DNA of 64,000 nucleotides, taken from NCBI RefSeq assembly GCF_009900715.1, contig NZ_JAAAJC010000006.1, positions 14,916-78,915 on the forward strand, given 5' to 3'. Below the pieces are notes generated by a model. The model made no database searches. It was not told where the DNA came from and saw nothing but the letters and a program-made list of their open reading frames with translations. Shown here piece by piece: positions 38,263-41,347 of the stretch. The first letter of the stretch is position 1; each line of letters starts with the position of its first letter. A program made the translations under genes and the position numbers. The stretch comes from Halococcus salsus (lineage in GTDB: Archaea > Halobacteriota > Halobacteria > Halobacteriales > Halococcaceae).

Positions 38263-38814
38263 ATGCGGAGACGAAACTATCTTCGAGTGCTCGGGAGCCT
38301 CCCGTTCGTCGCTGCTGGCGTCTCGGGTTGTCTCTCCGGGCGCATGAGCGGACCGGCGGAACGAGCGCTCACGGCCGACGCGATCGGTGACGCCTGGACG
38401 TATTCGGACGGGGGCTCCCCGGTAGTCACCGAGAGCGGGACGATAACCGCGAGCTATCACGCCGACGAACCGTACCCGCAGACCGTCAGGCTCCGCTTAT
38501 GGCCCTGTGAGGGCGAGACGCTCGACGCACTCGGTGGGACGTGTTCGCTGGGCAACCTTCCGGACCAGATGCGAGCGAACGAGAGCGTCACAACGGCGGA
38601 TGGCTCGATCGGCGAGACCGCCTTCCTCTGGTGGACCGACACCGTTACCGATATCGAGGTGGTCACCGCGAACCACGTCTTCCGCCTCACGCATACGCCG
38701 CTCAGTGGGACGGATTCGGGTGCTAACCCGGAGATACCGTCCCAAGACGAGCGAACCGAGACGGTAACCAGGATCGCTCAGCTCCAGACGGACAAGATCG
38801 ACCGTCTGACGTGA
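38263..38814 (+). CDS. secreted lipoprotein, family not recognised
   Basis: The 183-residue protein begins with RRRNYLRVLG, a hydrophobic stretch and lipobox VSGC, consistent with Tat export and lipid anchoring. The mature part is acidic, contains paired Cys residues around LWPCEGETLDALGGTCSLG, and has a Trp-rich segment ETAFLWWTDT. The C-terminus is Asp/Glu-rich. It stands 272 bases before the CHAT gene and has its own likely promoter. I recognise no enzymatic motif; a surface binding role is possible. Confidence 0.6.
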   Translation: MRRRNYLRVLGSLPFVAAGVSGCLSGRMSGPAERALTADAIGDAWTYSDGGSPVVTESGTITASYHADEPYPQTVRLRLWPCEGETLDALGGTCSLGNLPDQMRANESVTTADGSIGETAFLWWTDTVTDIEVVTANHVFRLTHTPLSGTDSGANPEIPSQDERTETVTRIAQLQTDKIDRLT

Positions 38815-39086: not shown

Positions 39087-41207
39087 ATGAGCGAGTTGGA
39101 TGGACGATCCAAGGGGGCTGGGAAGGAGCCGTTCTTCGAGGCTCCACAGAGCGGTGGACTGGTGGCAGTCGATCCGATCGAACGGCATCGCTACATGCTG
39201 TCGACACGGGAGAGGGTGCGACCGGAGCCAGCTACGACGGACGACTTCCGGTTTCCGGTCGATACCGCCGTCTCGGTCCGTACCGAAGCCATCTCGCTCC
39301 CGAGCGTCGTCTCCGTGCACGTCCGCGACGAGGAGGGAGCGCCGCTGTGTGAAGCGGAGCACTTCGCCTTCGAGGAGTTGCCTGCCGGGCGGTACACGGT
39401 CGATCTGAGTGCGCCGATCAAGCTCTATCTCCTGGTCGAGAGTCCGATCACGCTGCATGCCACCGCCGAGACCATGCGCATCGAGTTCGGCGAGGAGACG
39501 GAGGTCGTGGTGGGAGCGCGATCACACCACGACCAACCGGCGGCGACGGTGACGACGACGTCGGATCCCGAGGACCTGATGCGGGCGGTCTCGACGTTCG
39601 GTTCGGCCCTCAAGACGATGAGTCCGGAGCGGTCGTTCCCGACGCTGCGGGGCCACCCCCCGCTGGTCGAGCTCGGGGACGAACTCGACCTCGCGGGGCT
39701 CGAACCACCCGATTCGGGTGTCGTCATCGAACTTCCAGCCGACCGCCGGATGATACTCATCGCCGCGCCGCTGGCGTACTACCTCGGTGCCCGTCTGGTC
39801 CCCGGCGACGAACCGCTCCTGCGAGCCGACTCTGGATTCCAGTACGACCTGGATGGACCCCTGGGATTCGAACGGACCGTCGAGCGCACCCTGAAACAGG
39901 TGTTCTTCTTCGACTGTCTCACGCGTACCGAAGGGCTCTATCCTGTAGAGGTTCACGAGCGAAGAGCGCTCGAAGGCGACCTCGAACTCGACTTCGCCGC
40001 CCTCTATGAGGGTTCCTTGGTCGACCAACTCGAGGCCTATCTCGCCGTTCCATTCGAGACACTTGAAGCTCATCTCCCAAAGTGGAAGCTCACCACACAC
40101 GTCGAGCCAACGGCGTCCAGCGTCGAGATGCTCCCCTTCGCGGTCAACGACCTCGCCATCGTTCGGTGTGGCGAGACGACGAGCGCACCGAATCCCGCCA
40201 CGGCAGGGGTCATGGAGGGTAATGGAGCGCCCGTGGCTGAATCGGCTCGACGCGATAGTTTCACGCGGAGCGCGAGTTCGGAAACCGTCGCCCAGCCCGA
40301 GGACACGTTCGTGGAGCCAAAGCTGGATGATTCGCTGGAGCAGATGTGGGTGGGCGAGGGGATCCCCGTAAACGCGAGCAAGGCGTCCATCGAAGCCTAC
40401 CGGCATCGGCTCGATCGGACACCGACGGCCGGTGATATCGGGATCACGGTCGTCTGTAACGACGCGACGATGGACGAGGAGCGTGACTTCATCAACGAGG
40501 TCTATGGCGAGCGCGACGAGTTGCCCTTCGAAATCTCCGTCGAGCGCGAACTCACGACCACGGAGCTGACGGAGGTGCTCTCGTCCCGGACCGATTTCCT
40601 CCACTACATCGGACACGTCGACCCGGAGGGATTCGAGTGCGCGGACGGCAAGCTCGACGCGACGATGTTGGAGTCCGTGGGTGTGGACGCGTTCTTGCTC
40701 AACGCGTGTCAATCCTACCGTCAGGGCATGGCCCTCATCGAACACGGGGCTATCGGTGGCATCGTTACACTCAGCGACGTCCTGAACTGTGAAGCAGTCA
40801 GGATCGGACGGACGCTCGCACGCCTGCTCAACTGCGGGTTTCCGCTCCGGCCAGCGCTCGACATCGCGCGTGAGGAGAGCATCATGGGCGAGGAGTACCT
40901 CGTCGTGGGCGACGGAACTCTCTCGATCGCACAGGCCGAAAGTTTGACCGCGAATCTACTGCATATCGAACGCGACAATGGGCTATTCGATTTGACGTTC
41001 AGTGCACATCATACATCGAGAACCGGAATAGGAGCGTTAGTGGTACCCTATATCGACGATAGTGAGTATCACATCTCTACCGGGGAAATTCGAGAGAACG
41101 ATCTCACGAAGGAGGAACTCATGGACTTTCTTTCACTATCGAACGATCCCGTTAAGATCGACGGGAAATTACGGTGGACTTCTCAGATCGACGCTGACGA
41201 TCTATAG
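39087..41207 (+). CDS. CHAT-domain (caspase-like) protease
   Basis: The 706-residue protein has a CHAT peptidase domain at about residues 440-620. The catalytic dyad is His510 in FLHYIGHV and Cys541 in LLNACQSYRQG, with a conserved GAIGGIVTLSDV strand and LLNCGFPLRPALDIA helix after it. Residues 50-360 form a beta-rich N-terminal region (ligand- or partner-sensing by analogy), and 365-425 are a Ser/Thr/Pro/Glu linker. There is no signal peptide. CHAT proteases of bacteria cleave partner proteins, including in antiphage systems. The gene converges two bases from a 45-codon membrane microprotein gene. A TATA-like GCTTTTACTT lies about 30 bases before ATG 39087. The protease assignment is firm by motif; substrate and role are not known. 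Confidence 0.85.
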   Translation: MSELDGRSKGAGKEPFFEAPQSGGLVAVDPIERHRYMLSTRERVRPEPATTDDFRFPVDTAVSVRTEAISLPSVVSVHVRDEEGAPLCEAEHFAFEELPAGRYTVDLSAPIKLYLLVESPITLHATAETMRIEFGEETEVVVGARSHHDQPAATVTTTSDPEDLMRAVSTFGSALKTMSPERSFPTLRGHPPLVELGDELDLAGLEPPDSGVVIELPADRRMILIAAPLAYYLGARLVPGDEPLLRADSGFQYDLDGPLGFERTVERTLKQVFFFDCLTRTEGLYPVEVHERRALEGDLELDFAALYEGSLVDQLEAYLAVPFETLEAHLPKWKLTTHVEPTASSVEMLPFAVNDLAIVRCGETTSAPNPATAGVMEGNGAPVAESARRDSFTRSASSETVAQPEDTFVEPKLDDSLEQMWVGEGIPVNASKASIEAYRHRLDRTPTAGDIGITVVCNDATMDEERDFINEVYGERDELPFEISVERELTTTELTEVLSSRTDFLHYIGHVDPEGFECADGKLDATMLESVGVDAFLLNACQSYRQGMALIEHGAIGGIVTLSDVLNCEAVRIGRTLARLLNCGFPLRPALDIAREESIMGEEYLVVGDGTLSIAQAESLTANLLHIERDNGLFDLTFSAHHTSRTGIGALVVPYIDDSEYHISTGEIRENDLTKEELMDFLSLSNDPVKIDGKLRWTSQIDADDL

Positions 41208-41209
41208 AA

Positions 41210-41347
41210 TTATGGGCCGGCGATAGCACCACTATTAGCCGCTGCTGCACTGCCCACCTGTGACAGGAGGGTCATCAGGCCGAACAGCGCGGCGAGGGTT
41301 TTCGGGTGGTTCTGTAGGTACGTCCGGAGTTCGTTGGTATCGGACAT
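41210..41347 (-). CDS. hydrophobic microprotein (45 aa), DUF7503-like
   Basis: A 45-codon frame begins MSDTNELRTYLQNHPKTLAA, runs into a hydrophobic segment of about 17 residues ending SQVGSAAAA, and closes with a short Gly/Pro tail. This pattern matches a recurrent haloarchaeal microprotein family (DUF7503). The start at 41347 is fixed by that N-terminus, and a TATA-like AAAATATTC lies about 40 bases upstream. Its 3' end is two bases from that of the CHAT gene. It could be membrane-bound or an exported peptide; a link to the protease is inferred from position. Confidence 0.7.
   Translation of the reverse strand: MSDTNELRTYLQNHPKTLAALFGLMTLLSQVGSAAAANSGAIAGP

Follow-up and report, generated by a model that had tools for sequence, protein, structure and literature searches.

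A caspase-fold protease and a small Gly-Pro-ended protein form a convergent gene pair across haloarchaea

INTRODUCTION

For a small protein encoded next to a caspase-like protease, the closest described systems are of three kinds. Securin is a small, dedicated, pseudosubstrate-type inhibitor of separase. Csx29, the CHAT protease of Craspase, reportedly cleaves Csx30, which is encoded beside it. Rap-Phr systems comprise many paralogous protein-peptide pairs per genome, in which a short precursor with a signal-peptide-like core carries a variable C-terminal peptide; in Bacillus, these Phr peptides act on the Rap proteins.

In Haloferax volcanii, strong caspase-type activity was reported, with no gene identified and CHAT proteins never mentioned (PMC3615174). 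HalOD1 is a known output domain in haloarchaeal signaling (PMC5847659), and density-dependent shape change requires the HalOD1 protein DdfA (PMC10869688, PMC12240190). The Pfam family DUF7503 (PF24335) has no described function, and a literature search found no paper on DUF7503, DUF7504, or haloarchaeal CHAT proteins. Here, we describe a haloarchaeal pair of a CHAT-like protease and a DUF7503 microprotein, which is novel as a system and built from a known protease fold.

RESULTS

Gene layout of the locus

The window, that is, the whole stretch of DNA that was analyzed, comprises 64,000 nt from Halococcus salsus. On its plus strand, an ORF with an ATG start (39087..41207) encodes a protein of 706 aa, assigned to the CHAT/caspase-fold proteases from an AlphaFold2 (AF2) model and PDB fold matches. 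On the minus strand, a second ORF with an ATG start (41210..41347) encodes a microprotein of 45 aa, and a gap of 2 nt (41208..41209) separates the convergent stop codons. A sequence-only reading of this DNA had given the same lengths, strands, and two-base spacing, and its coordinates were exact. It had also mentioned DUF7503-like microproteins of haloarchaea, and this identity was borne out by a Pfam match (PF24335, E 1.7e-18) of 66.3 bits against a curated cut-off of 27. The same genome holds three paralogs of CHAT, and its DUF7503 genes, exactly two in number, both converge on CHAT paralogs with gaps of 1-2 nt. Opposite the third CHAT paralog, the convergent partner is a small ORF of another type, which encodes a soluble product ending ...SCTYSGP and overlaps by a few bases.

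The neighbor upstream of CHAT in the window encodes a putative lipoprotein of 183 aa without a Pfam match (38263-38814, plus strand). Beyond the microprotein lies a type I phosphodiesterase/nucleotide pyrophosphatase-like gene (PF01663; 41629-42654, plus strand). At 89 of 205 loci, a member of one gene family lies immediately upstream of CHAT in the same orientation, and the CHAT locus in the window was without it. In this family (examples, L180:4067-4825 and L243:3840-4949), one member matches HalOD1 plus DUF7504 (iKaiC-like), and the L180 member gave no Pfam match. The upstream family suggests a link between the CHAT pair and haloarchaeal signaling. DUF7503 and DUF7504 bear consecutive Pfam numbers.

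Fold and catalytic dyad of the protease

The 706-aa protein matched zero models of Pfam, NCBIfam, or PADLOC, and no curated CHAT profile of Pfam or NCBIfam matched it even at E 1. It is therefore filed as CHAT-like by fold and motif rather than as a member of the Pfam CHAT family. No sequence relatives were found in the PDB, and the database label of the CHAT proteins is mostly "hypothetical protein." The CHAT/caspase fold is supported by the AF2 model (pLDDT 89.8, pTM 0.90), for which a fold search returned separase as the best match (5fby, E 1e-8), together with SAVED-CHAT (8tl0, E 3e-7) and gingipain R (1cvr, E 1e-5).

In the model, a beta-sandwich-like N-terminal domain (residues 15-157; 39129..39557, plus strand, as are all parts of this gene) is followed by a middle alpha/beta domain (residues 161-377; 39567..40217), the predicted CHAT protease core (residues 418-609; 40338..40913), and a C-terminal beta extension (residues 610-706; 40914..41204). 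The beta-rich N-terminal half proposed by the sequence-only reading holds for residues 16-157 and fails beyond them, where the alpha/beta region follows. The catalytic-type residues His510 (HYIGH; 40614..40616) and Cys541 (NAC; 40707..40709), which that reading had taken to be an intact dyad, are indeed both in place. They stand after strands 3 and 4, a feature of clan CD caspase-like peptidases, and both residues are conserved in 290 of 294 homologs. CHAT also has invariant Arg residues, R182 and R280. The dyad is intact in 246 of the 247 CHATs with a partner and lost in three without one. The intact dyad of the partnered CHATs is consistent with control of an active protease.

Pairing of CHAT and DUF7503 across haloarchaea

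CHAT homologs were present in 367 of the 392 genomes of the order. DUF7503 was found in 336 of these 367 and in 0 of the 25 CHAT-less genomes (hypergeometric 3e-24, assuming independent genomes, which they are not). When one genome per genus was sampled (60 genera), 88 of the 90 DUF7503 genes were convergent with CHAT at <=275 nt, with a median gap of 20 nt. Many pairs abut or overlap, the gaps being mostly -21 to 12 nt, and the convergent arrangement was seen repeatedly in paralogs, of which there are up to about 20 CHATs per genome, on plasmids, and on chromosomes. The pairing is not due to chance. The sequence-only reading had set a functional partner beside a chance neighbor, and these counts support the partner; neither a lack of enrichment beside CHAT nor a microprotein in many CHAT-less genomes, which it had named as counterevidence, was encountered.

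Among the 148 distinct CHATs nearest to the query family (score >900 bits), 146 had a partner, and a more divergent CHAT subfamily was mostly without one. CHAT-like homologs from a single family of the phylum outside the haloarchaea (L439-L442) had no Gly-Pro microprotein. Since the partner is mostly missing from the divergent subfamily and absent from the non-haloarchaeal relatives, the haloarchaea are where the pair originated or was retained. Two of the non-haloarchaeal homologs face a different convergent gene, which by eye looks UPF0146-like. A viral origin of the pair was rejected, as no phage or viral contig match was obtained. A role as a defense system found no support, with a PADLOC match absent.

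Orphan DUF7503 genes are rare and were seen in Halospeciosus flavus and, in small numbers, in Halorussus and Haladaptatus. The Halospeciosus flavus chromosome (genome G161; L162-L166) carries five dispersed, near-identical orphan copies with the tail VWGCGSLGP and no adjoining CHAT; the sequence common to the five is about 170-370 bp. The stand-alone DUF7503-like ORFs of Halorussus (L167, L168, and L170) are divergent, end in SGP, TGP, or AGP, and lie beside ordinary metabolic genes, away from CHAT.

Hydrophobic core, variable tail, and Gly-Pro end of the microprotein

Most of the partner family shares one layout: a hydrophobic core of conserved sequence (YLAxHPRMxGVLFTxLLLLxQAGxxAA), a hypervariable stretch of about 7 residues, Gly-Pro, and the stop codon. 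In the microprotein of the window, the core helix covers residues 18-36 (41240..41296, minus strand; alignment, hydropathy, and a low-confidence AF2 helix) and is followed by the variable tail ANSGAIAGP with its terminal, near-invariant Gly-Pro (41213..41239, minus strand; partner alignment and end counts). When modeled alone by AF2, the microprotein gave low confidence, with a helix plus a loose tail. The hydrophobic stretch has an AxA-like end in 178 of 277 microproteins, and in many members the core looks like a signal peptide. The tail is uncharged and might be translocated.

Gly-Pro ends 253 of 287 partners, for which composition would predict about 0.5%; the remaining approximately 12% have other ends (IR, IS, ID, GT, and others). 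The terminal residues are encoded by all four Gly codons and all four Pro codons and are followed by all three stops, so the Gly-Pro constraint acts on the protein. Partners too divergent for a DUF7503 match still end in GP, and the same end is common to unrelated partner types. Among CHAT residues that change upon loss of the tail's final Pro, a single borderline column (K112) was obtained; it lay at the margin of the null distribution, and no conclusion is based on it. Within each of 12 genomes, the paired tails are all different.

Tandem arrays and other partners without the core

Partners outside the DUF7503 family include the Haloplanus arrays and some from Halococcus, and the hydrophobic helix is missing in at least two lineages (the Haloplanus arrays and the partner of the third Halococcus paralog). 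The Haloplanus partner has no helix and consists of 13-residue units, for example TADGNSGGISGPY, repeated in tandem, with copy numbers of 2, 4, 5, 7, 7, 10, and 13 across genomes. The unit is species specific and carried by all copies (GNGGGISGP, GNSGGISGP, or GNSSGISGP), and the residue after GP is variable (Y, F, M, or S). In six arrays analyzed, the units differ by up to 0.58 synonymous differences per site. Nonsynonymous differences were zero in four of the six; the other two showed mainly Ser TCC/AGC codon swaps and one first-unit Asp-to-Ala change. As judged from these codon differences, the repeat units are under purifying selection. The existence of core-less forms makes the tail, rather than the helix, look essential. 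A 13-residue period is too tight for several 75-kDa proteases to sit side by side, and the arrays are therefore probably cut into free peptides.

Covariation between tail and protease

Covariation was measured over 253 tail-CHAT pairs (effective number, about 114) as mutual information with background correction and was checked by weighting, subsampling, and within-clade permutation. The coupled tail/CHAT positions, counted backward from the C terminus for the tail, were -3/147, -4/285, -5/621, -6/655, -7/652 and -7/623, and -8/623, with z values of 5.8-9.0 for -6/655. On the protease, residue 147 lies in the N-terminal domain, Tyr285 in the middle domain (as read from AF2 and contingency tables), and residues 621, 623, 652, and 655 in the C-terminal extension. 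The couplings were largely stable to weighting and subsampling. The best column fell within residues 612-665, which make up 8% of columns, for 4 of 7 tail positions in three of four weightings and for 3 of 7 in the other; for control positions in the microprotein core, the corresponding counts were 2/22 to 5/22. Under within-clade permutation, 655/-6 (z 6.2), 652/-7, and 623/-8 ranked top for their own tail positions, and some control pairs were also high (295/-28, z 6.4). A Fitch tree-based test of co-change was saturated and uninformative.

The covarying residue combinations are physically sensible: Gly at -6 goes with Tyr655 and Ser at -6 with His655, and Asn at -8 goes with Asn623. There is also a size swap, in which the usually conserved aromatic residue at 285 (Tyr/Phe) is lost in 17 of 21 representatives with an aromatic residue at -4, compared with 4 of 113 otherwise, and this has occurred in several separate lineages. 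In a pairing test, for which the couplings were trained with relatives excluded, true partners scored above permuted partners in 10 of 10 multipair genomes, which share orthologous pairs (Stouffer z 5.05); random columns scattered around 0 (range, -2.4 to 3.0). Because the columns had been chosen on the full set, including the test genomes, this test is supportive rather than independent. The covariation supports direct contact between tail and CHAT. Tail and protease seem to have become matched to each other during evolution, and they look like a widespread lock-and-key protein pair.

DISCUSSION

Our main reading, to which we give a probability of about 0.5, is that the tail of the microprotein is a dedicated ligand that docks on and controls its own CHAT, probably as a pseudosubstrate-like latch. 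The microprotein would then be the carrier of a short C-terminal peptide of approximately 7 variable residues and a final Gly-Pro whose carboxylate is free, and this tail would dock specifically on the CHAT encoded next door. Its most likely place would be a groove close to the active site, lined by the C-terminal beta extension together with the N-terminal domains, where it would act as a product- or pseudosubstrate-like latch. In caspases, loop L4 follows the last core strand and shapes the substrate groove. Segment 621-655, which covaries with the tail, occupies the L4 position of caspases, after the final strand of the core, and from this topology it would come close to Cys541. A latch is favored by this L4-like place, by the kinship to separase, and by the free Gly-Pro at the C terminus. 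In most species, the hydrophobic helix would tether the latch to the membrane, and it is read as a tether because it is dispensable in Haloplanus and Halococcus. In Haloplanus, the carrier would be soluble, with 2-13 tail units, each of which is probably cut out as a separate peptide. Once the tail was lost, cleaved, or released, the protease would become free to act on a target. Placement of the tail at the active site is inferred, as is the direction of control, which would be inhibitory and not activating, and so are a biological trigger and a target.

The same precursor-like layout, with its constant core, AxA-like end, and hypervariable tail, also fits a cell-cell peptide signal, in which the helix would be an export signal and a Gly-Pro peptide, set free by a protease on the outside, would re-enter the cell or be sensed through CHAT in the manner of Rap-Phr. 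Distinct tails would then separate up to about 20 channels per genome, in line with the differences among all paired tails within each of 12 genomes; the tandem arrays resemble multicopy pheromone precursors, and the upstream genes are of the HalOD1/DUF7504 signaling type. However, the core-less Haloplanus and Halococcus partners have no visible export signal, and no conserved importer gene was seen among the CHAT neighbors. We consider such a signal plausible but less likely than the latch. The disk-forming signal of Haloferax is resistant to proteinase K and extracts into ethyl acetate (PMC12240190) and is therefore not evidently a Gly-Pro peptide. The fuller form of this proposal, in which 1 to about 20 orthogonal peptide-protease channels per genome use Gly-Pro peptides that pass between cells and switch caspase-like proteases feeding HalOD1-type signaling, as a means of archaeal communication or kin recognition, is speculative and rather unlikely.

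The array units, with a variable residue after each GP, look cleavable, and CHAT proteases elsewhere cut a neighbor-encoded protein (Csx29 and Csx30). CHAT might recognize the tail region and cut the microprotein, freeing a membrane-active helix or a tail product, and cut the Haloplanus array after each Gly-Pro; the covarying CHAT residues, which lie past the last strand of the core, would agree with this. Single-copy partners, however, have nothing beyond Gly-Pro and hence no prime side, and the core-less partners carry no membrane effector to release. A protease-substrate pair is rated unlikely, if still a serious alternative. The membrane effector that the sequence-only reading had offered as an option is weakened likewise, since partners without a hydrophobic helix occur in those two or more lineages. 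An explanation at the DNA level, by which the convergent 3' ends would reflect a shared terminator, antisense regulation, or inherited gene order, can point to the many pairs that overlap or abut, whose transcripts probably overlap as well. It is largely refuted and has very little left in its favor: Gly-Pro is written with all synonymous codons and all stops, on which ground a terminator or antisense role was rejected, array repeats differ almost only synonymously, the same layout is seen again in paralogs and on both plasmids and chromosomes, and tails covary with CHAT.

Among the known systems, separase-securin includes the best fold match of the haloarchaeal protease, which is separase. 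There is no sequence relation, and securin is long and disordered and lacks a Gly-Pro end; the haloarchaeal partner is a candidate inhibitor. With Csx29/Csx30 (Craspase) and the SAVED-CHAT defense proteases, the pair has in common the CHAT fold (8tl0), the His-Cys dyad, and a dedicated neighbor-encoded partner, but it has neither a CRISPR nor a SAVED part. Craspase has a TPR domain and lies beside gRAMP/Cas7-11 and Csx30; for the haloarchaeal protein, no TPR match in Pfam and no PADLOC match were found, and the CHAT neighbors are ordinary genes or of the HalOD1/DUF7504 type. Whereas those systems are patchy, the haloarchaeal pair is near universal in haloarchaea, and its partner is a 45-aa tail carrier. 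As in Rap-Phr and other RRNPP systems, a short precursor with a variable C-terminal peptide is paired with many receptor paralogs. In contrast to them, the receptor is a CHAT protease with a beta-rich N-terminal part and no TPR fold, the genes converge rather than follow one another, the tail keeps a near-invariant Gly-Pro, and some precursors have no export signal.

In general, two families of "unknown function" found in most haloarchaeal genomes become a concrete pair with predicted contact residues. The most informative features, namely, the Gly-Pro end, the hypervariable tail, the arrays, the covariation, and the near-universal haloarchaeal spread, went beyond the sequence-only reading. 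If the tails are latches, archaea would have their own equivalent of the control of separase by securin; if they are signals, the pair would amount to a peptide code for archaea. The approximately 250 natural peptide-protease pairs, together with the tandem-array precursors, are ready-made data on specificity. We also hypothesize that the haloarchaeal CHAT family is a candidate source of the caspase-like activity of Haloferax volcanii.

As a minor observation, Halospeciosus flavus (genome G161; L171 and L172) carries three CHAT paralogs in which both catalytic residues are replaced (D/P, D/G, and R/Q). Two of the three adjoin each other, none has a Gly-Pro partner, and these dyad-less proteins may possibly be decoys.
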